The position numbers and the translations under genes are program-made. Under the pieces are notes generated by a model. The model ran no database searches, had not been told where the DNA came from, and saw nothing but the letters and a program-made list of their open reading frames with translations. DNA of 42,540 nt from Verrucomicrobiota bacterium (GTDB taxonomy: Bacteria > Verrucomicrobiota > Verrucomicrobiia > Opitutales > UBA2995), in NCBI GenBank assembly GCA_027622555.1, contig JAQBYJ010000042.1, positions 1 through 42,540 of the forward strand, in the 5' to 3' direction. Below are positions 4,568-22,002 of this stretch, one piece after another. Position 1 is the stretch's first letter; the number at the start of each line of letters is the position of its first letter.

Positions 4568-6079
4568 ATGGATAACCTAAACCATACCAATGAAACTCGA
4601 ATCTCCTGCGGGGAGGAGTGTCATAGCTATTCACAGCTTTCCTGTAATCCCTTAACGATGACCCGTCGCTTTTTCCTTGGAACAGCGGCCAAGGGGTTGG
4701 GTGGTATGGCTCTGGCCTCTTTGTTGAACGATAAGTTACTGGCAGCACCTGCGGATGGCAATGGTCTTCCCGGGATTCCACATTTTGCTCCCAAGGCCAA
4801 ACGCGTCATTTATCTCTTTCAATCAGGAGGACCTTCACAGCTCGAGTTGTTTGATTACAAACCCAACTTGAATAAGCTTCATGGACAGGAAGTTCCTGCT
4901 TCGGTTTTTAATGGGCAAAGACTAACAGGTATGACTGCGGGGCAATCTTCGTTTCCTGTCGCGAGGTCCGTCTATGATTTTGAGCGTGTCGGAAAGAATG
5001 GAACTTGGATGAATACGGAACTGATGCCTCACCTCTCGAAAGTGGTGGATGATCTATGTATTATTAAATCCATGCATACCGAGGCGATCAACCACGATCC
5101 GGCTATTACTTTTTTCCAAACAGGTTTTCAAATCGCAGGTCGACCCAGTATCGGTGCTTGGTTATCTTACGGTTTGGGTAGTGCAAACGAAAATCTTCCA
5201 GCCTTTGTTGCGATGACGTCCAATGGAACCGCGGGTGGGGGGCAACCGCTTTACGATCGTTTGTGGGGTGCAGGCTTCCTGCCATCCAAACATCAAGGAG
5301 TAAAATTTGCGGGAGGAAAAGATCCGGTTTTGTATTTAAATAATCCTGACGGTATGAGCAGTGAGATTAGGCGAAAAACGCTCGATCATATCGCTGCCAT
5401 GAACCAGATGAAGTTCGATGATTATGGGGATCCCGAGATTGAGACCCGTATTTCTCAATACGAAATGGCCTTCCGTATGCAGACGTCTGTTCCGGAATTA
5501 ACTGATGTTACAAGTGAGCCTGACAGCACGTTCAAACTCTATGGCGAGGATGCCAAAAAACCTGGAACTTATGCAAATAATTGTCTGTTAGCACGCCGCT
5601 TGGCGGAACGTGGAGTGCGATTTGTTCAATTATTTCACCGGGCATGGGATGCTCACGGAAATCTACCCAGGGTTGAATCAAGGCAGTGCCAAGACACCGA
5701 TCAGGCAACGGCCGGACTTATTTCGGATTTAAAACAAAGGGGCATGTTGGACGATACGCTGATCGTTTGGGGCGGAGAATTTGGGCGTACCGTTTATTGC
5801 CAGGGTGAGCTTTCACCCAAGGAATATGGTCGTGATCACCACCCACGTTGTTTCAGTATGTTTTTGGCCGGAGGGGGAGTGAAGCCAGGTATCAGTTACG
5901 GTGAGACCGATGATTTTAGTTACAACATCACTTCCGATCCAGTCAGTGTGCACGACCTTCATGCCACGATTTTACATCAGCTGGGAGTTGATCACAAAAA
6001 GCTGACCTACAAATTCCAGGGCCGCCATTATCGCCTGACCGATGTCCATGGTAATGTCGTCAAGCCGATCTTGGCTTGA
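4568..6079 (+). CDS. DUF1501 family protein
   Basis: The 503-residue DUF1501 protein has a twin-arginine-like stretch ([12 protein letters not shown]) starting near residue 37, followed by a small-residue hydrophobic segment, so export by Tat is likely. DUF1501 proteins share the alkaline-phosphatase/sulfatase-like fold but have no established activity. Visible pieces are the [16 protein letters not shown] block near residue 90, GGEFGRT and the GRDHHP block at about residue 420. The gene starts 3 bp after the DUF1549/DUF1553 stop, with AAGGAG at 4556-4561 inside the end of that gene, so the two are probably translationally coupled. The N-terminal 30 residues before TRRFF are unusual for a Tat leader; an internal ATG at 4658 just before TRRFF is an alternative start. 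Confidence 0.92.
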
Positions 6080-6095
6080 TGTATTTACCTCGGAT

Positions 6096-7400
6096 CTAAC
6101 TCAACTGTGCGATTGTACCTGTGCTGGCGTTATTGAAGTTGTCGTTTTCAACGCCGTACTTTTGGAGAAGTGTCAGGTGCAGGTTTGCCAGTGGAGTATG
6201 TTCAACGCAGACCACGTGACCTCCCGGTTTCAATGAACCACCTGCTCGACCGGCCAAAATGATAGGTACGTTCTCTTTTTTGTGACCGTTGCCATCTTTC
6301 ATGCTGGAGCCATAAAGTACGGTTGAGTTGTCCAGCAAACTTCCATTGCCTTCGTCGATATTACTCATTCGTTCCAGCATATAGGCAAGCTGTTCAATAT
6401 ACCAGCGGCTTACCCGTGTGTATTCACTTACTGCTTGTTCCTGAAATTTGTGATGAGACATGCCGTGGTGATCGGATGTTACGCCATCCAGGAAACTGAA
6501 ATTTTGACGACTGAAACCGTGCGCGGTCATTAAAGCCCCTACGCGCGTCGTGTCTGTCCAAAAGGAGAGCACCATGAGATCCATCATCAGTTTTAAATGC
6601 GTGCTGCGGTCTTGAGGAATGCCTGCCTCGGGACGAATCATCTCCGGTTGGGTGAGTGGCTGCCAGGAACGCTCCTGAGGATTCAAGGTATTTTCAATTC
6701 GGACTTCCACAGAGCGAACGCTATCAAGGTATTCACCGATTTTGTGTTGATCATGGTAACTCGCCTTGCGCTGTAAGCTTTTGGCATCGTCCAGAACCAG
6801 ATCGACAACGCTCTTCCTTCGGGCTGCCTTGAGTTTAGCCTCAGGTCCGTTGTTGCTTCTGAACAGGCGGTCGAACGCTACACGGGGATTAATCTCGGGG
6901 GAAACACGTGTTGTCTCCGAGCTCCATGAAACGGTGTTGGCAAATGAAATGGGATTCCGACCGGCGTTTCCCTGGCGTGGAGGTTCTGTTCCTAAAGTAA
7001 TAGACGGGAAAAGCGTATCCCTTCCTATGGCTTGGGCGACCATTTGGTCGAGGGAAACCGCATTCTTGTCACCCTCGATCTTGGTGCCAGTTAGAAAGGC
7101 TCCAGTCAATTGGACATGACCCTTACCTATATTGTCGAGGTTGGATAAAATGGTTAGCTCTCGTTTAAGTCCCTGGAGGGGTTTAAGAATTGGAGACAAT
7201 TCAAATTGCCTACCTATACCAGTGACATCCCATGCTTCCGGAAAAACTCCATTTGGTTGAAAAATACAAGCCAATCGGGTTGGGGGAACTGCAGCCGAAG
7301 CCTTGGCCGAACTTCCCATAATGTCCAGATAAGGTAAGGCGAGACTGGCGCCTACGCCTTTAAGAAATGTTCTTCGTGAGATGTGCCAGTTGTTATTCAT
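6096..7400 (-). CDS. DUF1552 family Tat-exported protein
   Basis: This 434-residue protein begins with a clear Tat leader (HISRRTFLKGVGASLALPYLD) and then the DUF1552 body, including IFQPNGVFPEAW, TGAFLTGTK and the C-terminal GSSMKDGNGHKKENVPIILAG. DUF1552 proteins are the usual partners of DUF1592-type cytochrome proteins in PVC bacteria, just as DUF1501 pairs with DUF1549/DUF1553; no reaction is established. The start codon overlaps the stop of the upstream DUF1592 gene by 8 bp, so the two form one translationally linked operon. Its 3' end lies 16 bp from the stop of the convergent DUF1501 gene, which leaves little room for separate terminators. Confidence 0.92.
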   Translation of the reverse strand: MNNNWHISRRTFLKGVGASLALPYLDIMGSSAKASAAVPPTRLACIFQPNGVFPEAWDVTGIGRQFELSPILKPLQGLKRELTILSNLDNIGKGHVQLTGAFLTGTKIEGDKNAVSLDQMVAQAIGRDTLFPSITLGTEPPRQGNAGRNPISFANTVSWSSETTRVSPEINPRVAFDRLFRSNNGPEAKLKAARRKSVVDLVLDDAKSLQRKASYHDQHKIGEYLDSVRSVEVRIENTLNPQERSWQPLTQPEMIRPEAGIPQDRSTHLKLMMDLMVLSFWTDTTRVGALMTAHGFSRQNFSFLDGVTSDHHGMSHHKFQEQAVSEYTRVSRWYIEQLAYMLERMSNIDEGNGSLLDNSTVLYGSSMKDGNGHKKENVPIILAGRAGGSLKPGGHVVCVEHTPLANLHLTLLQKYGVENDNFNNASTGTIAQLS

Positions 7401-10194
7401 GATCGGGATTGGGGTGTTGAAACTGAAAGGGATAACTCAATATCACTTCTGATATTAATGACTTCGCATTGTAGTGGTTATTCTCCAAAGCATCAATGAT
7501 TTTTATGATAGCCGCTTCGTCGTAGTGTTTCAACTCTCTGCCTAGCGCAAACGCTAACATTCTCTCAGTTATATTGCGGATAAACTCGTCCTGCTTATTT
7601 GCAAGAAGGTAGTCTTTGAGCTCAATGGGACCGTTAAAACTGACTCCGTCCGGCATGATGCCGCTGCTATCAATTGGTTGGCCGTTTTCCTTTGTTCGGT
7701 AGCGTCCAATAGCGTCGAAATTCTCTAGACCGAAGCCAATGGGATCAATTTTCTCGTGGCAATCCACACAGCTGGGATCGCGGCGATGCATTTCAAATTC
7801 CTCCCGCAAGGTTTGTCCTTTAACCTGCCCGGCATTTTCTGGAAGAATGCCAGCGTCGGCAGGAGGCTCAGGAATACGATTCCCGAGCAAGGTTTCCAGC
7901 ACCCATTTGCCGCGACTTACGGGATTGGTCCGCACCGGATTGGAAGTGGCAGTTAGAATGCTGCCCATGCCAAGCAGGCCTCCGCGATTGCGGTCCGTGA
8001 GTTTCACAGGCCGCATTTGGCTGCCTTCCACGCCTTTTATTCCGTAGTGCATTGCCAACACATCGTTGAGATAGGTTTCGTCAGAATCCAACAACTCCAA
8101 CAGACTTTCTCCTTCTTTTATTAGAGTATCAAATACCAGCAAGGTTTCTGCCTTCATTGACTCTTGAAGAGGGATATCGAAATTTTTAAAGGTTCCCGGG
8201 TCTGGAATTATGGATACACCGAGTGATTCGAAACCCAGCCATTGGCCAAGGAATGTTCCCATAGTCGCAGTTGCTCTTGGGTCCTGCATCATTCTGTCAA
8301 TTTGCTGCTGAAGCGTCTTTGGATTATGCAAGCGATTTGATTTGGCCAAAAGAAAGAGCTCTTCATCGGGCATAGACATCCAAAGGAAATAGGAAAGTCT
8401 TGAGGCCAATTGGTAGTCATCGATGCGATATTCCTTGATTGTTTCTGATGGTGCCAACTCGGGACGATAAAGAAAGTGGGGCGATACAAGAACAGCTGTC
8501 AGAGCCAACTTCACCGACTCGTCAAACGATTGGCCTTCATTGGATGCTTTTTCGTAGAGTGAAGTGTAGCGTGCGACTTCCTTTTTTGAGACCTTTCGCC
8601 GGAAGGCACGCTGAGTAAACTGTTGCAGGATTGTATTGGCTGCTTTGACAGCGGACATCTTTTCTCCCGGCGTGGCTATAAAAACCAGTGACTCCGGAGG
8701 TGCAGTCTTGGGGCGGATGGGACCGCGAATTTTTACCCAGTCAATCGCCACACTTTGAGCCTTGTGTATCACTGCTTGTTTATCCGGTTTGACGTCGGCT
8801 ATGGCAGCAAGAATCTGTTCGTTAGCATGAAGCTTTTCAGCATTCATGGAACGGAATCGATCTTCAAATTCCTCTTGAGACAGGTTCAGCTTTCTTGCGA
8901 GTTCTGCGGTAGCATCTTTGACAACCTCACTACGTTGAATGACGTAGTCCTTATATTTGAGAATTTCTTCAGGATCTCCTTTGGTTCCAAGTAAGCGCAG
9001 TTGTTCGTATTGCTCCTGCATTAGACTTATCGCTTCATTGAAACGTGCGATGGATGAGATAAGTGCTTCTGAATCACCCGGGCTTGAAGGGTACTTAGGC
9101 GCATTTTCAACTACGCCTTGTTGAACCAGCTTACCTGCGTCGACCGGAAGATCCTTGTAAGTTGGCTGCTTGGGTTGAGGTCTTGGTTTATAAAGGACAG
9201 CAGGTATTTGGATATTCCAGGCGACCTGATGACTGCCTTTTGCAACAAAGGTAGTGATTTCGTAGATTCCAGGATCCTCGCTGTAAATTTTGATATCTCC
9301 CTTGGTTTCATCGTTTATACGTAGACGCGTGCCCGTCGGACCCTCTGTACTCAGTGCTCGAACCGTAAATTCGTAAAACCCATCATGCGGAAAGTCGATC
9401 GACTCATAGAGAGTCATTTGACCGCGGTTAATGACGTAACCTAAGAAGTCGTTTCCAAACTGCTTTGGGGTTTCCCGGGTCTCCGTCATGAACATGTCTT
9501 CCGATTCATAATGGTACTCAATCGGCTCTTTCTTGAAGGACAGAAGTGCGTCGATGGAACGTTCTGCAGCATCAAAATATTTCTCCATCAAAACAGGGGT
9601 TATAAATAAGTTGTCGCGATCATTCGTAAAACCGCTTTGCCCTTCGCCGTCCTCGGAGAAAAAGTTTCCGGGCTTAATGTCAATGCCCAATAGGTCGCGC
9701 ATAGTGTTGTTGTATTCCGTTTTCGTCAAACGGGGCATGGTTATGTGGCCTGGGTTTTTAACTTTGGACCAGTCAATTTCATTCAAAGTCTGTTCCAGCC
9801 AATTAACCAGAAGGGAGCGCTCCTCCGTAGTCGGTAGAGGCTCCTCATCCGGCATTTCTTCCGTTTTCACCAAATGGATTACCTCCTGCCAGAGCTTGTG
9901 CTCTTTGAGGAGCATTAGCTTATTATGGAAACTCGAAAGTTGGACATCTCCCTTTTGTTTTTCTTCTCCATGACAGCGAAAACAATATTCCTCCAGCAAC
10001 GGTTGGATATCATTTTCAAATGTTATCGGGCCTTCTTCAGTTGCGGCTATCGCCACGCTGCCCAGTTCCAAAATTAACCAAAAAACCAGCACTGACAACA
10101 TCGTCACTAGTGAGATCTTTGGGTGTTTCGGATTCAACTTTGAAGATAGCCAGTCGAAAGCCGTTGTATTTTTAGGAGAATGATTATTTCCCAT
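7393..10194 (-). CDS. PSCyt1-DUF1587-DUF1595-DUF1592-DUF1588-DUF1585 protein
   Basis: The 933-residue protein has a membrane anchor or signal segment at about 28-50, then a cytochrome-type haem site CFRCH at 71-75. DUF1587 follows (about 150-215, MPRLTKTEYNNTMRDLLG). A beta-rich middle part (about 230-320) looks like a PA14/CBM-type module. DUF1595 (about 540-605), DUF1592 (about 615-745), DUF1588 (about 755-855) and DUF1585 at the C-terminus complete it. A second CVDCH site lies within the DUF1588 stretch (CVDCHEKIDPIGFGLENFD), so the protein may carry two haems. It is the first gene of an operon with DUF1552. The family is highly expanded in PVC bacteria and its substrate is not known. A coiled-coil-like charged region sits at about 380-470. 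Confidence 0.92.
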   Translation of the reverse strand: MGNNHSPKNTTAFDWLSSKLNPKHPKISLVTMLSVLVFWLILELGSVAIAATEEGPITFENDIQPLLEEYCFRCHGEEKQKGDVQLSSFHNKLMLLKEHKLWQEVIHLVKTEEMPDEEPLPTTEERSLLVNWLEQTLNEIDWSKVKNPGHITMPRLTKTEYNNTMRDLLGIDIKPGNFFSEDGEGQSGFTNDRDNLFITPVLMEKYFDAAERSIDALLSFKKEPIEYHYESEDMFMTETRETPKQFGNDFLGYVINRGQMTLYESIDFPHDGFYEFTVRALSTEGPTGTRLRINDETKGDIKIYSEDPGIYEITTFVAKGSHQVAWNIQIPAVLYKPRPQPKQPTYKDLPVDAGKLVQQGVVENAPKYPSSPGDSEALISSIARFNEAISLMQEQYEQLRLLGTKGDPEEILKYKDYVIQRSEVVKDATAELARKLNLSQEEFEDRFRSMNAEKLHANEQILAAIADVKPDKQAVIHKAQSVAIDWVKIRGPIRPKTAPPESLVFIATPGEKMSAVKAANTILQQFTQRAFRRKVSKKEVARYTSLYEKASNEGQSFDESVKLALTAVLVSPHFLYRPELAPSETIKEYRIDDYQLASRLSYFLWMSMPDEELFLLAKSNRLHNPKTLQQQIDRMMQDPRATATMGTFLGQWLGFESLGVSIIPDPGTFKNFDIPLQESMKAETLLVFDTLIKEGESLLELLDSDETYLNDVLAMHYGIKGVEGSQMRPVKLTDRNRGGLLGMGSILTATSNPVRTNPVSRGKWVLETLLGNRIPEPPADAGILPENAGQVKGQTLREEFEMHRRDPSCVDCHEKIDPIGFGLENFDAIGRYRTKENGQPIDSSGIMPDGVSFNGPIELKDYLLANKQDEFIRNITERMLAFALGRELKHYDEAAIIKIIDALENNHYNAKSLISEVILSYPFQFQHPNPDHE

Positions 10195-10342
10195 TGGGAA
10201 AAAGGGTAGAAGATTACGATTTCAGGAACGTGCATTTCTAGAGGATTACTGCCCAGACTCAAGTACGATTGTTACTGTGAGATTTATCGGTTTTCCGCAC
10301 TTGCGCGCAGATAAACAATTATGTCAGATAACAGCAATTTCG

Positions 10343-11005
10343 ATGGAGAAGTTTAATAAGCCAGTCACTGAGGATTCAAACCAGGTAGCGGAAATATCAA
10401 GAGGTGAAATGCTTTTGCAGAAATTGAGATCCCGCATGTGGATTATTTCACCAACGGTTTTAGTCATAGTTGCTTTAATTCACCCTATCGCAGTACATCA
10501 TTTCAAAATGAACCCATGGAAAGGGGGGGCGTTTGGAATGTTTTCATCAGTTGACCATTATAGTAATCGATTTCTTCGACTGACGGTGCCGACTGAACAG
10601 GGTGAATATCCCGCTTTATTGACAAAATGGAAAGCCAGTAGAATCCATATTATCTGTATTCCGAATATCGGCCTACTGAATGAAGAGGCGGCATGGCAAG
10701 ATAACAAGAAATGGGTCCTTTTAAACACGAAGGATTTAGATATTTCGAAAGCTCTAAAAAGCACATCATCGCGGCAGGAGCAAGCGCTTGTAAATGCCTA
10801 TGGGAGCAGCCCAGAACCAAGTAACAGGTCGATGAACTTTTACGATGAATTTCTTGTTCAATCTAACCTGGTAAAAGAATTTGAAGCCCATTCCGGAGTT
10901 GTCGGAAAATCGCGGCTTGAAGCCTTTCGATTGGTCTATGAAGGATCAGGTCAATTCAGTTCCAGAAAGTTGGCCTCTTCTGAAAACGACCAGGCTGGTA
11001 GATAG
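10343..11005 (+). CDS. Single-span membrane protein of unknown function, HTTM-partner
   Basis: I do not recognise a named domain. From the ATG at 10343 the protein has 220 residues: a short cytoplasmic start, one membrane span (ISPTVLVIVALIHPIAV) and a soluble region of about 160 residues. Just after the span is a conserved-looking block, NPWKGGAFGMFSSVDHYSNR, which resembles segments I associate with genes next to HTTM/vitamin-K-carboxylase-like proteins. The HTTM-like gene follows 24 bp downstream on the same strand, so they probably form a functional pair. The start is uncertain: a GTG at 10277 and an ATG at 10409 (preceded by GAGGTGA at short spacing) are also in frame. Confidence 0.6.
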   Translation: MEKFNKPVTEDSNQVAEISRGEMLLQKLRSRMWIISPTVLVIVALIHPIAVHHFKMNPWKGGAFGMFSSVDHYSNRFLRLTVPTEQGEYPALLTKWKASRIHIICIPNIGLLNEEAAWQDNKKWVLLNTKDLDISKALKSTSSRQEQALVNAYGSSPEPSNRSMNFYDEFLVQSNLVKEFEAHSGVVGKSRLEAFRLVYEGSGQFSSRKLASSENDQAGR

Positions 11006-11029
11006 AGGGAAATCAATAGACCATTTTCT

Positions 11030-11932
11030 ATGAATTTAAACGCGAGTTACCTTTGTAAGTTTTTAGATAGACTCAACGATTGGGTGAGACCCTATGTTCA
11101 GGGTGGTCCTTTTGATGCGGCGATCTGTATCACATTGGTATTCTTTTTGATCGAACGTTCCAGTGAACCACAGTTGCTAATCCTTAGCGGATTGGCAATC
11201 ATCGTAAGACCCTTGTCCCGATCACCTGTTTATTGGATATTGTTGACCGGTTGGTATGTTGGATCCCAATGGCCTTATTGGTCGCATATGGACAATCATC
11301 TATACCTTTTTGCTTATTGGTGTCTGGCGATTATTCTGAGTCTTTTTAGTCAATTCCCAGAAGATGTATTGGCCAAATCAGCACGATGGTTACTTGGGTT
11401 GGTCTTCTTTTTTGCAGTGCTTTGGAAATTGCTGTCGATTGAATACTTGAATGGCTACTTTTTCGAATACGCTTTATTGGCCGACATACGACTATCACCT
11501 GTAAGCCTTGTCTTAGGACTTTCCGGGGAAACATTGTCAGAGAATCGTGATCTTTTGAGTATGTATATTTTCGGAGCTGATCCAACAAGCCAGCTAACCC
11601 TTACAACCTCCCCCTGGGTTCCATTTGTGGCCAAGGTATTAACCTGGTGGATATTGTTATCGGAGACAGCGGTAGCCATTGTTTTTTTGGCCCCGACGCG
11701 TTGGTTTAGTGATTTTTGGCGACATGGATCCATGCTTGTTTTTCTTTATACGACATACCCCATGGCCCAAGTAAGTGGCTTTGGTTGGATTCTGACTGCG
11801 ATGGGAATTAGCCAGCTTAAGCGGTCGTCCAAGCCCATTTATCTTGCCCTGTATTTGGGAGCATTTCTCGTAGTATTTTTCTCAAAACATCCTGGGATTC
11901 GAGGGATTCTCCAACATATGAATTTTCTCTGA
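11030..11932 (+). CDS. HTTM / gamma-carboxylase-like integral membrane protein
   Basis: A 300-residue polytopic protein with roughly eight hydrophobic spans. The layout and the FFFAVLWKL segment (about residue 126-134) resemble the horizontally transferred transmembrane (HTTM) family, related to vitamin-K-dependent gamma-carboxylase. A TSPWVPFVAKVLTWWILLSETAVA helix near residue 190 also fits the family. Bacterial HTTM proteins have no settled function. It follows the single-span protein gene by 24 bp. The convergent NRPS-like gene ends only 8 bp beyond its stop. The family assignment rests on overall pattern rather than a decisive motif. Confidence 0.6.
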   Translation: MNLNASYLCKFLDRLNDWVRPYVQGGPFDAAICITLVFFLIERSSEPQLLILSGLAIIVRPLSRSPVYWILLTGWYVGSQWPYWSHMDNHLYLFAYWCLAIILSLFSQFPEDVLAKSARWLLGLVFFFAVLWKLLSIEYLNGYFFEYALLADIRLSPVSLVLGLSGETLSENRDLLSMYIFGADPTSQLTLTTSPWVPFVAKVLTWWILLSETAVAIVFLAPTRWFSDFWRHGSMLVFLYTTYPMAQVSGFGWILTAMGISQLKRSSKPIYLALYLGAFLVVFFSKHPGIRGILQHMNFL

Positions 11933-11940
11933 AATACTTT

Positions 11941-14613
11941 TTATTTTAACAAAGTGTGGATGCGGTTTATTGGAATTTGAGTAAGAAGTTTCCGGTCTAC
12001 TTTACCGGTAGGGTTTGTTGGCAAAGCCGCTACTTCGTAGAGGTAATTTGGAATCATTGCGGTAGGGAGGTGCTTGAGTAATCCTTCCCGAATCTCCTCT
12101 TTACTGGTCAGATCATGTCCTTCTTGTAGTTTATAAAATGCATAGAGCCTCAAGGCATTATTAACCGTTTCATCCTCGCGGACAATCACCGCAATTTCAG
12201 AAATTTGGTCCAGCTTCATAAACGAACTTTCCACATCGGGAATTTCCATTCGGTAACCATTTACTTTTACCTGATTGTCTTTTCTCCCCAGATTTACCAA
12301 GCGGCCATCTTCCATTAAGTAGCCGTAGTCGCCGCTTCTGAAAAATTGCGTATTGTCTGTTAAACGTTTCAAGACTTCTTCGGTTTTATCTTTATCGCCC
12401 CAATAGCCTGAAAAAATGTTGGAAGTGTTCAGGCAAATTTCTCCCTCTACATTGTATGGGCAAGGATTACCCTCAGGATCTTGAATCGTTAAGTTAAGCT
12501 CTTTGAATGGGATGCCTACGGGAATTTGCTGTGGTACCACCGTCTCGTGAACAATGGGATCAAATGAGATAGATCCTGTTTCAGACGACCCAAGGTTAGA
12601 GTAGTAAATGGTCCCTTTTTTGAAGTGTTTTTTGAATTGTTCTATGTCACTGTGACGGGAAGGTTCTCCTCCTGGAGTTACGGAGCGAATGGAAGTAATT
12701 ACTGTTTCTTCATCCAGAGAATTTATGAAACTTCGATACACCGAGGTTACTGAGTGAAAGATAGTTATTTTGTTGGCAATGAGCCATGATGCAAGAGCAT
12801 CAATGCCACGCTGTTTTAATTGATAAAAGCAGAAGCAACTTCCAAACTGCATCGAAGCATAAAACCCATTTAAAAACCCCATAAAGGCTCCCGAGTAAAC
12901 ACTCAGGTAGCGATCGCTGCTTTTTAGATCTATTCCTTTTCCTCGCCGCCAACCGATATACGAAATACTACGATGATTGTGGAGAACTCCTTTCGGTTTG
13001 CCGGTAGTTCCAGAGGTAAACAATATTACGGCAGCCGAATATGGTTCAATGTGCGTTGGTAAAAGCACTTTGTCGATCTGAGCGGTTAGTTGGTCAATCG
13101 AAATGGTTTGAGCTTTTGATTTCTTAAAAACCTGTTCGGCTTTTTTCAGCAGACGATCGTCGGTTATCGCAAGGTCGGCACCTGACGCGAGAATTATGGC
13201 GTTTGTCCTTTCAGTGGGATGGTCGGGATCAAGTGGAATATAAAAATTTCCGGATTTCAACACAGCCAGGAAAGTTGCACACATGGAGTAGCCGTTACTC
13301 AGGTACACGGCGATTCCGTGACCCGCACCATCCAGGGTTTGAGTTATATGGGTGCCAATAAAATCAGAATATTCATCAAGTTCTTTGTAACTATAAAACC
13401 TGCCATTGCTCATGATGGCTTGTTCGTTTTTGAATGTTTTGACCACTTCCTTGAAGCGATTTACTGGCGAGCAAATTTGAGATTCAGGAAACGGGAGTTC
13501 TATTGATGATGAGGAATGGGTTGTTTTATTTGTATTCTTATTGCAGATTTCCTCGATGATTTGATTTGTGTGTTCAACCACGTTTTTGGCATCTTCACCA
13601 TACATAAGCGTGAGATGATCTCCGGGTACTTCTATGATTCGAAGACCAAGGCTGGCTCTCTTGGTCCAGCCAAGTTCGTAATCAAGCTCTCTTCTTAGAA
13701 GAAGTTGTTTTTTTGCTCTCAATAAAATCAGCTCACCTTCAAAAGTTCCATAATCATAAACCCTCCGTAGGTTATTTTGCGCTGCATCTTCGATTCCCAT
13801 CGCAGCCAACTGGTCGTCCCGAACTGTCCTGGAAGAACGAGAATTCAGTTTTTTCAAAAGATAAATCATCTTCACTCCGATCAACGAGCTTACGTTTGTG
13901 AGATTTAATCGAGCGTTATTCCGGCGATAGGTACTTCGTCCAAACCGGAATCTTATGACCAGTCGCTTTAATCTATTAAACAGGCTTCCCGTGAATCGTG
14001 GTTGGTAATATTCTTTGCCTCTTGCAATGGTGTCATATACTATAAGTAGTTCGATTTCGTCTCCGGTTGCCTTTAGCTGTTTGGCAACTTCCCAGGCAAA
14101 GGTTCCTCCGAAAGAGTACCCGCAAAGTCTGTACGGACCTTCTGCCTGAATATCCTTGATGGCCTTTATTTTATATTCAGCAATCTCTTCAACGGACTTG
14201 TAATTATGTTGGCCGCTTGATGATACCCTTGGTTCGAGGCAATAGCAGGGTTGATCTGGTTTCAGATGCTTACTGAATTCGCGGTAATGAAATATTCCAC
14301 CTATGGCCGGGGCTAAAACGAATAGAGGCGTCTGATTTCCTTTGATTTGAAGCGGAGTTACGATAGCTCGCTTTTCTTCCTTCTCGAATGTGGCAATGAG
14401 TTTTGCAAAATCTGCAAGTACCGGTGCTTTGTAAACGGTTCCTGCAGGAATAAGGAAACCTGTTTTGTGTTCAACGGCCAAAGACATGTTAATTGCAGCC
14501 AAAGAATCTCCTCCCAGTTCGAAAAAGTGGCTGGATGCAGTCACCTCCTTCGAAGGAAGGAATTCTAACCAGAGCGAAACTAGGATTTCTTCGATTTCTG
14601 AAAGCTGCTTCAT
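11941..14613 (-). CDS. NRPS-like carrier-thioesterase-adenylation (T-TE-A) protein
   Basis: The 890-residue protein carries three recognisable domains in an unusual order. First is a phosphopantetheine carrier domain (about 5-75) with FFELGGDSL and modifiable Ser37. Next is a type I thioesterase (about 90-355) with GYSFGG (Ser167), Asp194 exactly 27 residues later as in surfactin thioesterase, and His333 in GDHL. Last is an adenylation domain (about 385-885) with TSGTTGKPKG at 533-542, GDYG, GRKDNQVKVNGYR and the A10 lysine at about 871. There is no condensation domain. NRPS release modules normally run A-T-TE. The position equivalent to Asp235 of gramicidin synthetase appears to be Met578, which argues against an ordinary alpha-amino-acid substrate. 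Activation, loading and release by one free-standing protein is inferred. Confidence 0.88.
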   Translation of the reverse strand: MKQLSEIEEILVSLWLEFLPSKEVTASSHFFELGGDSLAAINMSLAVEHKTGFLIPAGTVYKAPVLADFAKLIATFEKEEKRAIVTPLQIKGNQTPLFVLAPAIGGIFHYREFSKHLKPDQPCYCLEPRVSSSGQHNYKSVEEIAEYKIKAIKDIQAEGPYRLCGYSFGGTFAWEVAKQLKATGDEIELLIVYDTIARGKEYYQPRFTGSLFNRLKRLVIRFRFGRSTYRRNNARLNLTNVSSLIGVKMIYLLKKLNSRSSRTVRDDQLAAMGIEDAAQNNLRRVYDYGTFEGELILLRAKKQLLLRRELDYELGWTKRASLGLRIIEVPGDHLTLMYGEDAKNVVEHTNQIIEEICNKNTNKTTHSSSSIELPFPESQICSPVNRFKEVVKTFKNEQAIMSNGRFYSYKELDEYSDFIGTHITQTLDGAGHGIAVYLSNGYSMCATFLAVLKSGNFYIPLDPDHPTERTNAIILASGADLAITDDRLLKKAEQVFKKSKAQTISIDQLTAQIDKVLLPTHIEPYSAAVILFTSGTTGKPKGVLHNHRSISYIGWRRGKGIDLKSSDRYLSVYSGAFMGFLNGFYASMQFGSCFCFYQLKQRGIDALASWLIANKITIFHSVTSVYRSFINSLDEETVITSIRSVTPGGEPSRHSDIEQFKKHFKKGTIYYSNLGSSETGSISFDPIVHETVVPQQIPVGIPFKELNLTIQDPEGNPCPYNVEGEICLNTSNIFSGYWGDKDKTEEVLKRLTDNTQFFRSGDYGYLMEDGRLVNLGRKDNQVKVNGYRMEIPDVESSFMKLDQISEIAVIVREDETVNNALRLYAFYKLQEGHDLTSKEEIREGLLKHLPTAMIPNYLYEVAALPTNPTGKVDRKLLTQIPINRIHTLLK

Positions 14614-14731: not shown

Positions 14732-15994
14732 CTAACGTTTTTTTAAATCCACAATCGCCTGGTAGACCAACGAATGCATTTTTCGGCGAAGGTTGTAGGG
14801 CGAGTTTCTTACCTGGATCATTGTTATTACCGTTAGGTCTTCAATCGGGTCTATCCAAAAAAGGGTTCCGGCAATTCCGCCCCAGTAGTATTCGCCCACA
14901 GATCCTGGCGCTCCCGTAGTGGTGACATCTTTTACGATTCGAAACCCTAGTCCGAAACCGTGATCAGCATTGGAGTCATAGGTTTCCAGTGTAGCCGGAA
15001 AATGATCAGTTCTCATCAGCTCCACGGTTTTCCGACCGAGTAGGCGAACACCATTAAGCTCTCCTCCATTGAGCATCATTTGGCAAAAACGCCAGTAATC
15101 TGCCGCGGTCGATACGAGGCCTCCTCCGCCTGAGAAGAATGTGACTTTGTTGACAAATTTGCTGGATTGAGGCGCATCGCTCAACTCTAACGAACGCGTG
15201 TCCTTGTTGAAAGAGTAGCAAGCGGCGAAACGACCTTCCTTTTCATCGGGTACTTCAAAAAAAGTATCTTTCATCCCTAAGGGAATAAAGACTCTTTCTT
15301 GTAGAAATTTATCGAGTGGCATTCCGGAGAGGATTTCCACCAGGCAACCCTGTACATCGACAGAAACACTATAAACATACTTATCTCCTGGATGGTTTTT
15401 AAGAGGGATACTCCCCAGGGTTTCCAAAAATTCTTTTGAGGATTTTTTTCTTAGCACTTCATGTTGGTTATATAGTTTGTCTACTTCGCTATTTCCAAAG
15501 ATGCCATAGGTTAGTCCGGAGGTGTGGTTGAAAAGATGTTGAATCGTCATCTGCCTTTTAGGCTCAACCAACTCGCCGTCTACCATTACTTTTTGGTCCT
15601 TAAACTGTGGAATATATTTTGAAACGGGTTCGTTGAGTTGGAACTTACCTTCCTCGTGAAGCATCATGAGAGCCGAGCTCACTACGGGTTTGGTCATTGA
15701 ATAAATCCGTACAAGCGTGTCCTTTTCCATCGGGTTTCCAGATTCCAGGTCACGAAGACCATAGTTCTCGTAATGCACGATTTTTCCGTGTCTCGCTACG
15801 AGTGAGACCGCTCCGGGCAACTCTCCTGAATCGACTAGCTTATTTAAGTTCTCATCAATCCTTTCCAGGCGTTCAGTGGACATTCCAACCGATTCCGGTT
15901 TGGCGAATGGGAGGTTAACTACTTTTGAATCAAGGTTTGCCAGGCTGGCAGACAGCAGAAGTAGTCCAGTAACAAGTTGTTTGCGATAAATCAT
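14732..15994 (-). CDS. Beta-lactamase-family (class C-like) serine hydrolase
   Basis: A 420-residue secreted serine hydrolase of the beta-lactamase/EstB/penicillin-binding fold. A signal peptide covers about residues 1-19. The catalytic SxxK is SMTK at 99-102, and the tyrosine of the YxN-like element is Tyr208 (YSVS). FNHTSGLTYG at about 155-164 and the late DHGFGLGF are typical of this family, whose members are esterases, peptidases or amidases rather than true antibiotic resistance enzymes. It lies 26 bp after the cyclase-family gene and is probably the last gene of that minus-strand unit. The substrate cannot be told from sequence; an esterase acting on acetylated or acylated glycans would fit the neighbourhood but is speculation. 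Confidence 0.88.
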   Translation of the reverse strand: MIYRKQLVTGLLLLSASLANLDSKVVNLPFAKPESVGMSTERLERIDENLNKLVDSGELPGAVSLVARHGKIVHYENYGLRDLESGNPMEKDTLVRIYSMTKPVVSSALMMLHEEGKFQLNEPVSKYIPQFKDQKVMVDGELVEPKRQMTIQHLFNHTSGLTYGIFGNSEVDKLYNQHEVLRKKSSKEFLETLGSIPLKNHPGDKYVYSVSVDVQGCLVEILSGMPLDKFLQERVFIPLGMKDTFFEVPDEKEGRFAACYSFNKDTRSLELSDAPQSSKFVNKVTFFSGGGGLVSTAADYWRFCQMMLNGGELNGVRLLGRKTVELMRTDHFPATLETYDSNADHGFGLGFRIVKDVTTTGAPGSVGEYYWGGIAGTLFWIDPIEDLTVITMIQVRNSPYNLRRKMHSLVYQAIVDLKKR

Positions 15995-16020: not shown

Positions 16021-16983
16021 TTAAAAAGTGGCTATTGGATTCAACGGCGAACCTGTGCCACCTTCAACCGGTATAGGAGCTACTGTCAGAAGGAATTCAT
16101 AGCGACCCAGTTCGTCGCATTTTTGAGCCAAGCGCTCGAGTTCGAGATTGTCGAGTATCGGCACTCCCATCACGTTCAACATCATCAAATGAATGGGCGA
16201 GGAGTAGCCTTCAATGCCCGATGGGGAAACATCGCTGCCTCCATCGCTTCCCATCACAGCAATGTCTCTTTCCTTGAGCCACCGAGCGCACGAGGCATAT
16301 AGACCGGCAGAGCCGGATTCCCACGGGCCAAGCTCATCGCGCCTTGCCCAACGGCCTGTGTGAAGCAAGACGGCATCTCCCTTGCGAATCTTCACGCCCA
16401 CCATTTTCTCCCATGCGTCCAGATCTTCCGGATACAGTGCGGTTCCAGGTTCGAGGTATTTGACTCCTTTGAGTTTTGCAGCGTCAATTAAAACTCCGCG
16501 GGTAAAAATTCCTTGCTTGGCATTTCGGATATCCAGTTTTCCCGCTCCCATCTCTGTAACAACGTTAGCTGAAAATCCGTTATACAATTTTCCGTCGTCT
16601 ATGTAGTGGCATAAAGCGTCCATGTGGGAATGAGCGAAGCCGTGGTATGATACCGAGTAATTATCCGAATTCCACTGTTCTCCAAATCCCACCATCGTGT
16701 GCATGAACGGTCTGGGGTTGTCGGGGGCGATTGTTTTTATTACATCCCGTGCCGTTGAAACTGAAATGCCTTCCGTTACCAAGGCAGCGGCATCTTTTCG
16801 CGTTTGCGGCGTGATAAGGTTGAGTGCACCTTTCTGGTCATCCGCACCCCAGCGTCCCCAATTGGACAACTCTTTTTTCATAGACTCGATATCTTTCGCC
16901 GTAAGTGACTTGTGCTGGTTGGCTCCCAATGCAAGAGGTGCGAACATGGTAAGGGTAATTAGGATGCTGCGTATTTTGTTCAT
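16021..16983 (-). CDS. Secreted cyclase-family (kynurenine-formamidase-like) hydrolase
   Basis: From the ATG at 16983 the protein has 320 residues with a signal peptide (about 1-20). I prefer this start because a longer in-frame reading to 17079 adds an implausible N-terminus running through a palindrome. The cyclase fold (PF04199) is shown by NWGRWGADDQKGALNLITP (about 41-59), the metal-binding HSHMDALCH at 118-126 and a C-terminal GTGSPLNP. Family members are metal-dependent amidohydrolases such as arylformamidases; the exact substrate is open. Export of this family is less common than cytosolic location. It is followed 26 bp downstream by the serine hydrolase and preceded by the KDG kinase gene about 250 bp upstream. 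Confidence 0.87.
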   Translation of the reverse strand: MNKIRSILITLTMFAPLALGANQHKSLTAKDIESMKKELSNWGRWGADDQKGALNLITPQTRKDAAALVTEGISVSTARDVIKTIAPDNPRPFMHTMVGFGEQWNSDNYSVSYHGFAHSHMDALCHYIDDGKLYNGFSANVVTEMGAGKLDIRNAKQGIFTRGVLIDAAKLKGVKYLEPGTALYPEDLDAWEKMVGVKIRKGDAVLLHTGRWARRDELGPWESGSAGLYASCARWLKERDIAVMGSDGGSDVSPSGIEGYSSPIHLMMLNVMGVPILDNLELERLAQKCDELGRYEFLLTVAPIPVEGGTGSPLNPIATF

Positions 16984-17067
16984 GATTAACTCGAATTGGT
17001 TTTGACTCTTAGTTGCTGTAATCCGTTTGTGCAAAGAAAATGAGTGGCGCAGAGATTGGGAATGTAG

Positions 17068-17086
17068 CCCAGTCATCATGACTGGG
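17068..17086. promoter_or_regulatory. 19-bp perfect palindrome, candidate operator
   Basis: CCCAGTCAT and its exact inverse ATGACTGGG flank one central C, giving a 9-1-9 palindrome. It lies 85 bp upstream of the cyclase ATG at 16983 and after the KDG kinase stop. No T-run follows on either strand, so a terminator is unlikely. Odd-centred dyads of this size are typical of dimeric repressor sites. The regulator is not in the window. Confidence 0.4.
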
Positions 17087-17229: not shown

Positions 17230-18321
17230 TTACCTGACGACTCTTCCCGAACCACCCGATTTGATCAAAGCTTCTACTTCTTCTCTGGTTGAGAAGTTGT
17301 AGTCTCCGTAAATGGAGTGGGCTAGGCAGGAAGCGGCTACTGCGAAATCAATGGCAGTCCCCGATTCTGAAAGCTCTGGCGTATTCAATGCGAAAATGAG
17401 ACCCGCACCAAACGAATCTCCACCACCTACTCGATCCACAATGTTCCTGATTTCGAAGGGTTGGTATTCGCCTTCGTTTTCTGGTGAAAAGACGGATTTT
17501 TTGGTTGAAGCATCGTATAACATAGCTCCCCAATTGTTGTGAGAAGCTGAAATGCTTTCCCGAAGGGTAATTGCAACTTTGCTCACGTTGGGAAATTGGC
17601 TGACAATTTCTTTCGCTACCTGGGTGTATTTGGCAGCATCGATTTTGCCTGAATGAACATCGGTATTCTCAGGGTGGATTCCTAGAACGTCTGAAGCATC
17701 TTCTTCATTGGCGATCACCAGGTCGACGTAAGGCAAAATCTTTCGAATGGTTTTTTGGGCGAGCTCGTTGGCTGAGGTCCCTGGCTCCCAGTTCCACAGT
17801 TTTTTGCGGAAATTCAAATCACAGGAAACCGTAAGCCTTGCTTCCTTTGCGTTTTTTACCGCAGCCAATGTGGCCTCAGCTGATTGTGCTGAAAGGGCAG
17901 GCGTAATGCCAGTCGTGTGCATCCATCCCGCGTCACCATAAATAACATTCCAATCATACGCTTCGGGAGGAGTCATACTTACCGACGAGTAGTCGCGATC
18001 GTATATAACTCGGCTGGGTCGTTGGTTGGCTCCCGCTTCTACCCAATAGAGTCCAAGGCGTCCGGCATCCGTTAACACAATACTTTCTGTGTCGACCCCC
18101 AGTCCTTTGAGGTTCGCCAGGCAAGCTGCCGTTATGTCATTTTTAGGTAGGGCAGTTACAAAACGCGTTTTGCCACCAAGCATACTAAGGGAGGCCGCCA
18201 CGTTCGCTTCCGCACCCGCGAAGGTCAGGTTGATATCGCCAGGGAGGGATTGACGAAAGCGTTTGAATCCGAAAGGGCAAAGGCGCCCCATGATTTCACC
18301 AAAAGTTACAATTGTTTTCAT
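17230..18321 (-). CDS. kdgK: 2-dehydro-3-deoxygluconokinase (PfkB family)
   Basis: A 363-residue PfkB/ribokinase-family sugar kinase. The N-terminal GAEANVAASLSMLGG and the C-terminal anion-hole motif GGGDSFGAG (299-307, catalytic Asp302) are clear. The immediate neighbour is KDPG aldolase, 2 bp upstream on the same strand, which makes KDG kinase the natural reading: ATP-dependent phosphorylation of 2-keto-3-deoxygluconate to KDPG in the cytosol. This is the committed step that brings uronate-derived KDG (from alginate, pectin or ulvan) into central metabolism. PfkB members are hard to separate by sequence, so another acidic or keto sugar is possible, but the eda linkage makes KDG most likely. 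Confidence 0.85.
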   Translation of the reverse strand: MKTIVTFGEIMGRLCPFGFKRFRQSLPGDINLTFAGAEANVAASLSMLGGKTRFVTALPKNDITAACLANLKGLGVDTESIVLTDAGRLGLYWVEAGANQRPSRVIYDRDYSSVSMTPPEAYDWNVIYGDAGWMHTTGITPALSAQSAEATLAAVKNAKEARLTVSCDLNFRKKLWNWEPGTSANELAQKTIRKILPYVDLVIANEEDASDVLGIHPENTDVHSGKIDAAKYTQVAKEIVSQFPNVSKVAITLRESISASHNNWGAMLYDASTKKSVFSPENEGEYQPFEIRNIVDRVGGGDSFGAGLIFALNTPELSESGTAIDFAVAASCLAHSIYGDYNFSTREEVEALIKSGGSGRVVR

Positions 18322-18323
18322 GA

Positions 18324-18968
18324 TTAAATAGAGTCGGCTATGGTTCGAGCTTCACGGGCATTGGCTTCAATGGTGTCCCAATCTTCGGCGTTGATCACAT
18401 CCTTTTTGGCAAGCCAGGATCCGCCAATGGCGCAGATGAGAGGTGACTTCAGGTAGTCGACCATGTTCTGGGCATTGAGTCCGCCCAAAGGAATAAAGTC
18501 GAGGCCAAGGTGTTGGTAGGGTGCTACCATTCCCTCGAGGTGTTTTAACCCGCCGGATGTTTCGGCTGGGAAATATTTTATGGTGCGGCATCCCAGTTCA
18601 ATTGCGGCTTCGATGTCGCTTGGAGTCATGATGCCAGGGCCAAAAGGTAAGCCTCGCTCCTGCGCGTATTTAACTATCCTGGCGTTCATGCCCGGTGCCA
18701 CACCGAATGCGGCGCCCGCTTCTACTACCTGATCTACTTGCTCTGTAGTAAGTATGGTTCCGATTCCTGCCAGCATTTCCGGAACTTCAGCTGTAATTGC
18801 CTTGAGCGCAGGTAATGCGGCCGGTGTTCGTAAAGTTAGTTCCATCGCTCCGATGCCGCCGCGAAGAAGAGCGCGGGCCACGGGAACGGCGTGAGCAGCA
18901 TTGTCGATAACGAGGACAGCAACCACTTTGGATTGTTTTATTTTTTCGTGAAGATCTTTAGGAAACAT
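18324..18968 (-). CDS. eda: KDPG/KHG aldolase
   Basis: A 214-residue class I aldolase of the KDPG/KHG family. The Schiff-base lysine is Lys131 in IKYFPAE, the catalytic glutamate is Glu43 in MELTLRTP, and GIGTI (68-72) and the PGIMTPSDIE phosphate-site region (111-120) are intact. It cleaves 2-keto-3-deoxy-6-phosphogluconate to pyruvate and glyceraldehyde-3-phosphate in the cytosol. It is the first gene of an operon with KDG kinase (2 bp gap), and together these two genes form the terminal steps of uronate breakdown or an Entner-Doudoroff branch. No ribosome-binding site is visible before the ATG. Confidence 0.93.
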   Translation of the reverse strand: MFPKDLHEKIKQSKVVAVLVIDNAAHAVPVARALLRGGIGAMELTLRTPAALPALKAITAEVPEMLAGIGTILTTEQVDQVVEAGAAFGVAPGMNARIVKYAQERGLPFGPGIMTPSDIEAAIELGCRTIKYFPAETSGGLKHLEGMVAPYQHLGLDFIPLGGLNAQNMVDYLKSPLICAIGGSWLAKKDVINAEDWDTIEANAREARTIADSI

Positions 18969-19065
18969 AGTTTTTCTAAATAATAAACTGCCAGAAATTG
19001 TTTTGGCGTCGATTTATGCGTATGGAAAACAAGATGACCAGAAGGTTTTTAGTCAAAGGTTGAGT

Positions 19066-20076
19066 TTAAGGACCAAGCGCCCGTTTACCTTCCGTAGGGT
19101 TGATAGTAATGCTGTATTGATAGGTGCGGGATTTTCCCGCGGGTAGTTTTATTAGGTAGTCCTTTTCCTCAATGGCTTCCTCAGTATCTTGTAAGTCGTG
19201 GTGAGCAACCATAGGTTCTATCGCTGCATAGGGCATCCCAGGCGGCGACCATAAGTTGGTGTTTGGAAAGTCTTCCAATTCAACAGTCACATAAGGCTTC
19301 CGTCCTTTAAGTGCTATCCCGATGGATCGGGATTGGTTATCCAACAAAAACATTCCACCATTGGGGATACGATCGTCACTTAAACTGAGTCGGTCTTCAT
19401 TGTTCAAGTAGTCTACTTTGTTTTCCTGAATCAGACTATCGATAATCTCGTTACGTTTTACATGCATCTTTTCGGAAAAGACGTATTGGTAATCCGAACG
19501 ATCCCTGCGGTTAGCGAGCGGTGCGTTGAACCCCGGGTGGCCTCCAAGTGCAAAATAAAGAGTTTCATCCCCGGTATTGGTGACTTTGTATTTCTGCAAA
19601 AGGGTTAGCCCTTTTACCTGAGAGGTGATTTTAAGCTGAAATGGGAAGGGATAATGCTGCAAAGTTTCTTCAGACGAATTGAGCACCTGAACCACTTTAC
19701 TTTCGGAAAAGTCTTTTTTTAGATTTTTCGGAGTCCGATCCTTTTTCTTTTCTTCGGTATGTTCTGCAGTTTCGAAAGTCGCAACGACTGCGAGTCCCAT
19801 TCGCGGCATTTCAAACTCCTTACCTTTGTAGGTGAATCGGTTATCTTTGAAGCGGACATTGACTGGAAACATGTTGGGTGACCGCGCGGCCCAGAATTCA
19901 GGGTCACCTTGCCATAGGTATTCGATTTCCGTCGGTATATGTTTGATGCTTTGCAGTTCAGCTCCCTTCGTCGCCAGGGTGACTGACAGTTCCTTGTTTT
20001 GTATGGAGACAGTATGGTGGTTTCCCTGAAGCGAGTTGGTTGCCATTATGCTAAGAAAAAAGATGAATATCTTCAT
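19066..20076 (-). CDS. Aldose-1-epimerase-like protein, exported
   Basis: A 336-residue protein with a signal peptide (about 1-18) and the galactose-mutarotase-like fold. Supporting segments are NKELSVTLATKGAELQSI, YLWQGDPEFWAARSPNMFPV (about 53-72) and FALGGHPGFNAPL (about 176-188), where the histidine is the probable general acid. It is closest in pattern to the LacX/Slr1438-type epimerase-like group rather than classical GalM. Family members interconvert alpha and beta anomers of sugars; a periplasmic copy would act on sugars released outside the cytoplasm. It is divergent from the sulfatase gene starting at 20172, with 95 bp between the starts. Confidence 0.83.
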   Translation of the reverse strand: MKIFIFFLSIMATNSLQGNHHTVSIQNKELSVTLATKGAELQSIKHIPTEIEYLWQGDPEFWAARSPNMFPVNVRFKDNRFTYKGKEFEMPRMGLAVVATFETAEHTEEKKKDRTPKNLKKDFSESKVVQVLNSSEETLQHYPFPFQLKITSQVKGLTLLQKYKVTNTGDETLYFALGGHPGFNAPLANRRDRSDYQYVFSEKMHVKRNEIIDSLIQENKVDYLNNEDRLSLSDDRIPNGGMFLLDNQSRSIGIALKGRKPYVTVELEDFPNTNLWSPPGMPYAAIEPMVAHHDLQDTEEAIEEKDYLIKLPAGKSRTYQYSITINPTEGKRALGP

Positions 20077-20171
20077 AGGTTTTATAATCCGGAAAAAATG
20101 GGATAGGGTCTTTGGGTTTACTATTCGGTATTGCCGAGAAGGACATCAACCAATTTTATAACTTCTTCCCT

Positions 20172-21608
20172 ATGAAAACGCTTTTTCTCTTCTTTTGTTC
20201 CGTCATTTTATACAGCTCCCTTTCATTGAATGCAGCAACAGACCGTCCGAACGTGTTACTGATATTGACGGATGACCAGGGCTATGGGGATCTTTCATTG
20301 CATGGTAATCCCTACCTAAGCACGACTTCGATGGATCGAATCGGGAAAGAGGGGGTTCGGTTGGACCGGTTTTATGTAAGCCCGGTGTGTGCGCCGACGC
20401 GTGCCAGTCTAATGACCGGGCGTTACCACTTAAGGACTGGGGCATTTGGTGTAACCAGGCGTGAGGAGGTAGTGAATCCAAGCGAAACTACGATAGCCGA
20501 GTTGATGCGCGATAATGGTTATGCGACCGGTTGTTTTGGAAAGTGGCATAACGGCTCCATCTATCCGGAAACTCCCAACGGTCAGGGATTCCAGGAATTC
20601 CTTGGTTTCCTTGGCGGGTTGACCCAGCGTTATTTTGGACCCGAGTTAAATCACAATGGTGTAGAGGACGATTACGAAGGCTATGTTACGGAAGTGCTTG
20701 CCGATGCCGCGATCGATTGGATGAACGGGCAGGTTGAAGCAGATAAACCGTTTTTTTGTTATGTTCCCTTTAATGCGCCCCACACACCAGGGTTGGTGGA
20801 TGAATCATACTGGAAACCATTTTATAACAAACAGGCAGGTCGTTGGGAGTCGGTCATTTTCGGTATGATTCAGGCCATCGACGATCAAGTTGGAAAGATC
20901 CTCAAATTCCTGGAAGAGAAAAGACTGGAAGAGAATACCATCGTTATTTTCATGTCCGATAACGGACCGGCCACGTGGAGGTATAACGCTGGATTGAAAG
21001 GGAAAAAGGGACAACTTTATGAAGGTGGCATTCGCGTGCCTTGTTTCATTCGATGGCCAGGAGTCTTGAAGCCTCATGCGGTTGGGAGGCCTTTGTCCCA
21101 CCTCGATATTCTTCCGACGTTGGTCGAATGGTGTGAGCTGAAAGGAGCCGAGGGATTAGCGTTGGACGGACGAAGTTTTGCTTCGCTAGCCGAAGATCCA
21201 TCAACGAAGTGGCCTGATCGAAATTTTGTATCCTTTTCCCAGGGACAGGAATCCAAGATCGAGCGGAACGGTACGGTTCATAGCGATCAATGGACGGCTG
21301 TTCAACAGGAGGGAAATTGGGAGTTGTACGATATTCAGGCAGATGTTCGTCAACGGCAGAATGTTGCTGATAAACATCCCGAGGTAGTAAAAGCGTTAAG
21401 TTCCTATTTTAAAGCCACCTTGGCGACTATGCCTCCGTTAGGAAAAGCGGCGCCTGTTCCGGTCGGGATTGAGGGGAATGTGATTGTTCTTTTGGAGGGA
21501 CAAGATGCGATACTTCCCAAGTTCAAGGGGAAGGGTATTGATTATAACTATCCCGCCGGGTTTTCCCACCATTGGATCAGTCGATGGACAGAAAAATGCC
21601 TATCCTGA
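20172..21608 (+). CDS. Secreted sulfatase, catalytic part of a frameshifted gene
   Basis: A formylglycine-type sulfatase with signal peptide (about 1-21), DDQGYGD metal-binding start (Asp34, Asp35) and the modification motif CAPTR at 73-77, followed by GKWH and SDNGP. I chose the ATG at 20172 because the signal peptide begins there. The reading frame ends at 21608 after an apparently scrambled tail (RWTEKCLS). The next frame continues from about 21597 with a coherent beta-rich sequence beginning NAYPEWDLDIV. The break sits at a five-A run (21592-21596); removing one A would give a single protein of about 588 residues. Sequencing error or a recent mutation are both possible. The catalytic domain itself is complete, so the shortened enzyme could still be active. 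Confidence 0.88.
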   Translation: MKTLFLFFCSVILYSSLSLNAATDRPNVLLILTDDQGYGDLSLHGNPYLSTTSMDRIGKEGVRLDRFYVSPVCAPTRASLMTGRYHLRTGAFGVTRREEVVNPSETTIAELMRDNGYATGCFGKWHNGSIYPETPNGQGFQEFLGFLGGLTQRYFGPELNHNGVEDDYEGYVTEVLADAAIDWMNGQVEADKPFFCYVPFNAPHTPGLVDESYWKPFYNKQAGRWESVIFGMIQAIDDQVGKILKFLEEKRLEENTIVIFMSDNGPATWRYNAGLKGKKGQLYEGGIRVPCFIRWPGVLKPHAVGRPLSHLDILPTLVEWCELKGAEGLALDGRSFASLAEDPSTKWPDRNFVSFSQGQESKIERNGTVHSDQWTAVQQEGNWELYDIQADVRQRQNVADKHPEVVKALSSYFKATLATMPPLGKAAPVPVGIEGNVIVLLEGQDAILPKFKGKGIDYNYPAGFSHHWISRWTEKCLS

Positions 21609-21939: not shown

Positions 21940-21963
21940 ACTTATCGCTGCTTCTGTTTTCTT

Positions 21964-22002
21964 TGTGCGTAACTCTGCTGCCAAACGCACATAGTACCTA
22001 TG
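21964..22002. other. Two small inverted repeats between convergent sulfatase genes
   Basis: TGTGCGT (21964-21970) pairs with ACGCACA (21985-21991), and CATAG-TAC-CTATG follows at 21990-22002. The stretch lies between two convergent sulfatase genes and may help stop transcription, but there is no T-run, so a classical terminator cannot be claimed. Confidence 0.25.

Follow-up and report, generated by a model that had tools for sequence, protein, structure and literature searches.

Indigoidine synthetase is a one-module enzyme that has no condensation domain. Domain order is a main rule by which the products of NRPSs are predicted, and a stand-alone protein in the order carrier (T), thioesterase (TE), adenylation (A), which is kept over a large evolutionary distance, breaks that rule. 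Enzymes with the same parts in the order A-T-TE couple two aromatic keto acids, according to the parts of PMC10316625 and PMC9047271 that deal with them. The window (the whole stretch of 42,540 nucleotides that was analysed, contig JAQBYJ010000042.1 of a Verrucomicrobiota bacterium) carries a T-TE-A gene on its minus strand, which is a self-contained, rare and conserved variant layout of this known enzyme type. No report of a stand-alone T-TE-A protein was found in the open-access literature, which is weak evidence of absence.

Domain architecture and structure models

The gene, its domains and its catalytic codons are placed as follows.

11941..14613, minus strand: T-TE-A gene, 890 aa, a single open frame with an ATG start
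14395..14583, minus strand: carrier (T), PP-binding, aa 11-73 (Pfam PF00550, 38.6 bits, cut-off 20.8), with a GGDS motif
14503-14505, minus strand: codon of the phosphopantetheine Ser37; the Ser is invariant in 11 aligned rows
13561..14328, minus strand: type I thioesterase (TE), aa 96-351 (Pfam PF00975, 88.3 bits, cut-off 26.4)
14113-14115, 14032-14034 and 13615-13617, minus strand: codons of the TE triad Ser167, Asp194 and His333, respectively
12400..13455, minus strand: adenylation (A) core, AMP-binding, aa 387-738 (Pfam PF00501, 184 bits, cut-off 29.9)
12880-12882, minus strand: codon of Met578, at the position of GrsA Asp235 in the code alignment
12001..12234, minus strand: A C-terminal subdomain, AMP-binding_C, aa 794-871 (Pfam PF13193, 29.2 bits, cut-off 24.5)
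12001-12003, minus strand: codon of Lys871, at the catalytic Lys position (GrsA 517)

The initial annotation had described one uninterrupted 890-residue frame with a carrier serine at position 37, a triad of Ser167, Asp194 and His333, a complete A domain behind the TE and no condensation domain, and our analysis bears out each of these points: the frame is open from its ATG, the four residues lie at those positions, both parts of the A domain score over their cut-offs with Lys871 present, and the condensation family is absent among the four Pfam matches of the protein, which run T (aa 11-73), TE (aa 96-351) and A (aa 387-871). Score and Ser-Asp-His triad together place the TE among the type I thioesterases (PF00975), and 184 bits with Lys871 place the A domain among the adenylate-forming enzymes (PF00501). 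One A, one T, one TE and no condensation domain make up the parts list of an A-T-TE enzyme, in another order.

An AlphaFold model of the full protein (18 rows; mean pLDDT 82.0, pTM 0.61) matches adenylation domains over residues ~376-860, with PDB 4d4i as the best match (VIA-align Z 48.4, rmsd 2.4, 468 aligned), and a separate T-TE model (pLDDT 75.6, pTM 0.76) is matched best by the T-TE of AB3403 (PDB 4zxh; VIA-align Z 25.4, rmsd 3.5, 227 aligned). The TE region at about 200-280 is poorly predicted in both models alike. The alignment with the AB3403 TE spans all three triad positions of the window protein, AB3403 having Cys at the nucleophile position, and that with EntF reaches Ser167 and Asp194 only. 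Neither the sequence nor the fold of the TE can separate hydrolysis from coupling or dimerisation.

Stand-alone relatives

Two further proteins share the Pfam order of the window protein. One, from the one-contig genome G273, which belongs to the window's class and a different taxonomic order, is 53% identical over aa 8-885; the other, of 898 aa, from G698 in the window's order and another family, is 32% identical over window aa 11-880. The catalytic residues are kept in all three of these distant proteins, and each stops shortly past its A domain, no remnant of a later T being seen. A fourth relative, in G004 from the window's genus, has T then A and no TE; its A domain is 36% identical to that of the window and the linker before it looks alike by eye. 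The T and A of G004 lie in two overlapping frames (L010 2999-3376 and 1486-3132) at an 11-C homopolymer in an assembly of 900 contigs, and the frame break may be a sequencing error, a real frame change or a switchable homopolymer.

An assembly error that joined two genes, one of the possibilities by which the initial annotation could have been overturned, is excluded, as is a chance fusion. The order is real and no artefact because the G273 and G698 proteins repeat it and because the A parts and the T-TE parts each form one clade (see below).

No further stand-alone T-TE-A protein was found at E <=1e-20 in 53 relatives, at E <=1e-55 in 384 genomes of the class and 387 of the phylum, at 1e-55 in 322 genomes of the order (A domain query only), or at 1e-60 in sets of 239, 17 (G698 protein query) and 274 genomes; these sets overlap one another, and most of the searches scored two to four candidates per genome, a depth at which distant members may be missed. 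Outside the phylum, plasmids were covered together with one collection scanned by short peptides, and the latter gave a single match, in the A domain, at 23% identity. Five frames of 788-959 aa (G002 C394, C348 and C135; G004 C732; G009 C47) and two others (G1226 C155, 949 aa; G931 C1, 1314 aa) were set aside after domain mapping, these seven being A-T-TE, (C-)A-T, A-T-C, or T-TE without A.

T-TE-A runs inside large NRPSs and on plasmids

Of 274 genomes of a related order, 12 gave a match in the search and 8 have the same run of domains within long NRPS frames (1846-3989 aa); all eight carriers of the internal run were mapped (G378, G1156, G1138, G213, G386, G1128, G1112 and G1175). An A domain, complete or cut off, precedes the T-TE in every one. 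In seven the second A has a T behind it, and in the eighth (G1175) the contig ends there. In the three runs where the second A was typed it has Asp235 (3/3), and the A after the internal TE in G378, G213 and G386 falls in another, larger clade than the A domain of the window. Internal TEs are frequent in NRPSs of this related order, for example C-A-T-TE-A-T-TE in G378 and C-A-T-TE-A-T-C in G1128 (L040, L041, L042, L094, L098, L111, L112, L115).

The initial annotation had called the domain order inverted relative to known release modules. Since the same run exists inside larger NRPSs, T-TE-A as such is not new; the rarity lies in a stand-alone protein that ends in A. These internal runs also bear on whether the window protein could be a nonfunctional remnant of a larger NRPS, in which the T-TE end of one module has been left joined to the A domain of the next, exactly the run seen in the longer chains of the eight genomes. 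We consider this very improbable: the three such A domains in our tree belong to the other clade and have Asp235, the catalytic residues persist in three distant proteins, none of these three has a trace of T after the A, and the frame is still open at 53% identity.

Among plasmids, 17 of 2106 matching records had one place covering at least 80% of the query, a coverage in which pieces are joined regardless of order. The 12 listed records of at least 80% coverage that were mapped (H1-H6, H8, H10, H13, H16, H21 and H23) show the order A, T, TE without exception where they match, and none has T-TE-A in one frame, which rules out, for these domain-mapped records, that the order is common in plasmid NRPSs.

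Phylogeny and descent

An A-domain tree of 31 rows, built without G046, unites the four T-first A domains in a single clade (100/100) nested in a 13-row group (100/99); in each of the proteins behind the other nine rows, A precedes T. These are the A-T-TE proteins of G931, G072 and G416 (the last with a C domain ahead), the A-T proteins of Nostoc, G002 and Emticicia (with a tail), the A-T-C protein of G959 and the G316 protein, which contributes both of its tandem A domains. The T-first clade was recovered at 100/100 in a tree of 29 rows (without G046 and five more rows), in which the wider group is weakly held (73/96) and takes in the stand-alone A-T-TE of G1246, and at 85/91, drawn open, in the first tree of 30 rows, which included the long, acyl-CoA-ligase-like G046. 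The tandem A domains of G316 (L044 5808-13172) lie in a 2454-aa NRPS read by eye as A-A-T-C-A-T-TE, are alike and lack Asp235; AulA is another enzyme with two consecutive A domains, as stated in the part of PMC5238615 that concerns it.

The T-TE parts of the three T-TE-A proteins also form one clade (99/99), in a tree with long branches and unsettled bootstrap. They do not join the TEs of A-T-TE proteins, those of G931 and Emticicia being distant. The AU test (p 0.47) gives no preference for placing the T-A protein of G004 inside or outside the T-TE-A group. With the T-first A domains in one clade and the T-TE parts in another, we conclude that the T, TE and A parts evolved together.

In formal terms T-TE-A is a circular permutation of A-T-TE, as T-A is of A-T, and we hypothesize that it may have originated by permutation of one A-T-TE gene. 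A bolder and rather doubtful proposal is that T-TE-A and its T-A sister make up a small, naturally circularly permuted one-module family with a single origin among A-first, mostly Asp235-less enzymes and with a new dimeric or esterified non-amino-acid product; if this were true, a carrier would be loadable by an A domain at the opposite end of its chain.

Substrate code of the adenylation domain

The ten-residue codes were read from a MAFFT alignment with GrsA as the reference, checked against 1amu, and are MGNHTGNSIK in the window protein, MGNHVGNSIK in G273, MGMHIGCTIK in G698 and MGNHTGNSLK in G004. All four T-first A domains thus have Met in place of Asp235, and in the wider 13-row clade the Asp is lost from 12 rows, all but G416. 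The A5 motif of the window A domain is LGSSE, without Pro; across the 31-row panel this Pro is found in none of 13 rows without Asp235 vs 14 of 18 with it, a comparison in which the 13 rows are partly close kin, counting among them two near duplicates and all four T-first rows, hence not independent. In the sections of PMC11253843 that treat these positions, an aliphatic residue replaces the Asp in alpha-keto and hydroxy acid domains, a non-proline residue at the A5 position is tied to alpha-keto acid binding in StsA, and this keto-acid enzyme becomes inactive once Pro is placed there.

Asp235 is the residue that binds the alpha-amino group of a substrate, and an alpha-amino acid substrate is unlikely, because Met occupies this position in all four T-first A domains. 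The alternative would be that an alpha-amino acid is activated through another pocket arrangement and leaves the TE as its ester or amide or as a diketopiperazine-like product. The best NCBIfam match of the protein is indeed the amino acid adenylation model TIGR01733 (257.7 bits, below its cut-off of 317.4), and the Asp is not strictly needed even for an amino acid, McyG activating Phe with Val in its place (in the relevant part of PMC11253843), but the loss of Asp235 across the whole T-first clade and nearly all of the wider one leads us to judge this alternative unlikely too. The window enzyme probably acts on a small acid other than a normal amino acid.

Within that class the code points weakly to an alpha-keto acid. 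The window, G273 and G698 codes agree with that of CesA-A1 at 5 of 10 positions, a weak match which G052 (with Asp235) and G046 (acyl-CoA-ligase-like) also reach against the best of five codes, and G004 agrees with its best of the five at 4 of 10. The window code begins with Met, whereas the keto-acid rule, as given in portions of PMC10316625 and PMC5238615, has Val first; Table 1 of PMC5238615 lists five keto codes, four Val-first and one Gly-first, with no Met-first code among them. The substrate class and product of this enzyme would add new entries to code-based prediction.

Gene neighbourhood

Two genes lie upstream of the T-TE-A gene on the same strand.

14732..15994, minus strand: serine beta-lactamase/esterase family gene (Pfam PF00144), 118 bases upstream of the T-TE-A gene
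16021..17079, minus strand: putative cyclase gene (PF04199), the next upstream neighbour

The best homologue of the PF00144 gene in nine genomes (G002, 68%) has no T-TE-A match within about 800 bases beyond it, and a comparison of eight loci gave no homologue of the PF04199 gene; both are neighbours by position only and are not assigned to the T-TE-A system. On the other side, two plus-strand genes (10277-11932) run towards the T-TE-A gene and are therefore not in its operon. Neither has a Pfam or NCBIfam family over cut-off, and the second looks membrane-bound by eye.

The neighbourhood comparison in relatives, proposed as a check in the initial annotation, found no conservation at the G273 and G698 loci: of ten window genes, only the T-TE-A gene itself and sulfatase-like matches (27-35%, near G273) recur. 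No conserved gene beside it points to the substrate. The earlier claim that an HTTM pair was the only biosynthetic company of the gene stands insofar as no conserved biosynthetic neighbourhood was seen in the loci compared; the HTTM label itself has no Pfam or NCBIfam support.

Elsewhere in the window, 1427-10194 holds two planctomycete-cytochrome-type sets, one of PSCyt1/PSCyt2/PSD1 with DUF1501 and one of a DUF1592-type protein with DUF1552. Within it, 1427-4564 gives a clostridial receptor-binding fold match below cut-off (23.6 vs 23.8 bits) that overlaps a stronger Laminin_G_3 match and is most likely an ordinary lectin-like fold. Three sulfatase genes lie at 17230-25654 with PfkB kinase, KDPG/KHG aldolase and aldose epimerase genes.

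At the G698 locus (L067 7035-11554) the T-TE-A gene stands with genes for a sugar-transfer associated ATP-grasp protein and a family 2 glycosyltransferase. In G1246 (L103 4935-11916) a run on one strand comprises Iso_dh (isocitrate/isopropylmalate dehydrogenase), an isochorismatase-aldehyde dehydrogenase frame, a LigXa-like Rieske oxygenase and then the A-T-TE gene, whose TE has Cys at the nucleophile position by eye; this run is a candidate small biosynthetic operon. The two contexts hint at small-acid chemistry, though they disagree with one another.

The G698 pair follows the T-TE-A gene on the same strand (the ATP-grasp being PF14397), as would suit a surface-polymer modification in which the TE works as an acyltransferase and passes the acyl group to a glycan or glycolipid. 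The pair is known in G698 only, however, and is not among the annotated or listed neighbours of the window and G273 genes, and we regard such a role as quite unlikely.

The protein could also be part of an assembly line working in trans, its A domain charging the carrier of another protein and its T-TE receiving and releasing a chain built by another enzyme, such as the one condensation-bearing NRPS (A-T-C-A-T-TE) of the window genome. The A domain that follows an internal TE has a T behind it in seven of the eight large NRPSs, and that of the window has none, which would fit a carrier supplied by a partner. The condensation-bearing NRPS, however, owns a T and a TE and sits on another contig, the same fusion is kept in G273 and G698 where nine other window genes that were tested do not recur (apart from the sulfatase-like matches near G273), and in the G004 relative, too, T precedes A, albeit split over two frames. 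We consider the in-trans arrangement rather unlikely.

Proposed catalytic cycle

The initial annotation proposed that the protein could activate, load and release one acid, and this remains the best reading of the sequence. We give somewhat better than even credence to a self-contained, one-module, condensation-free NRPS-like synthetase that takes a non-alpha-amino carboxylic acid, loads its own carrier and releases the product through its TE. The domains, the kept catalytic residues, the common history of its T-TE and A parts and the loss of Asp235 are established, and the substrate class, the own-carrier loading and the release reaction are inferred. A phosphopantetheinyl transferase from elsewhere in the genome, which has two matches to such enzymes (one of them Sfp-like, about 220 aa), would prime Ser37. 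The C-terminal A domain would then adenylate a carboxylic acid that lacks an alpha-amino group, for which an alpha-keto or 2-hydroxy acid is a first guess, and the acyl group would pass to the N-terminal carrier of the same protein, either intramolecularly or between the two chains of a dimer. From there it would move onto Ser167 of the TE and be released, either by coupling to a second acyl unit or other acceptor, modelled on the A-T-TE quinone and furanone synthetases, or by hydrolysis. The protein offers a small natural system for asking whether an A domain can charge a carrier lying ahead of it and to what extent modules can be permuted, which is relevant to engineering.

Comparison with known systems

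The termination modules of EntF and AB3403 have the T-TE fold and the triad positions in common with the window protein, but in both the A domain precedes the T, whereas in the window protein it comes after the TE. The large NRPSs that hold a TE internally (G378 and seven other genomes) share the T-TE-A run; they are multi-module, with A domains of another clade and Asp235 in the three codes read, whereas the window protein stands alone and has Met. The G004 relative resembles it in having T before A and in its code, MGNHTGNSLK, and differs in its lack of a TE and its two overlapping frames.

Nearer in their parts are the stand-alone A-T-TE proteins of G931 (838 aa) and G1246 (about 843 aa), whose A domains lie in the wider, mostly Asp235-less group (for G1246 a weakly held one), and the Emticicia protein of 839 aa, which is A-T plus a tail in which Pfam finds no TE. 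All three have the A domain first, at 25-30% identity to that of the window, and the TEs of G931 and Emticicia are distant. The condensation-free A-T-TE synthetases (the fungal quinone and furanone enzymes and bacterial RalA and EchA, the latter two likened by description) have the same parts in a single protein with Asp235 replaced; the window protein departs from the quinone and furanone synthetases in its T-TE-A order and in a code that begins with Met, theirs beginning with Val in the portions of PMC10316625 and PMC5238615 that give it. These A-T-TE quinone and furanone synthetases offer the closest working analogy for how the window protein may release its product.
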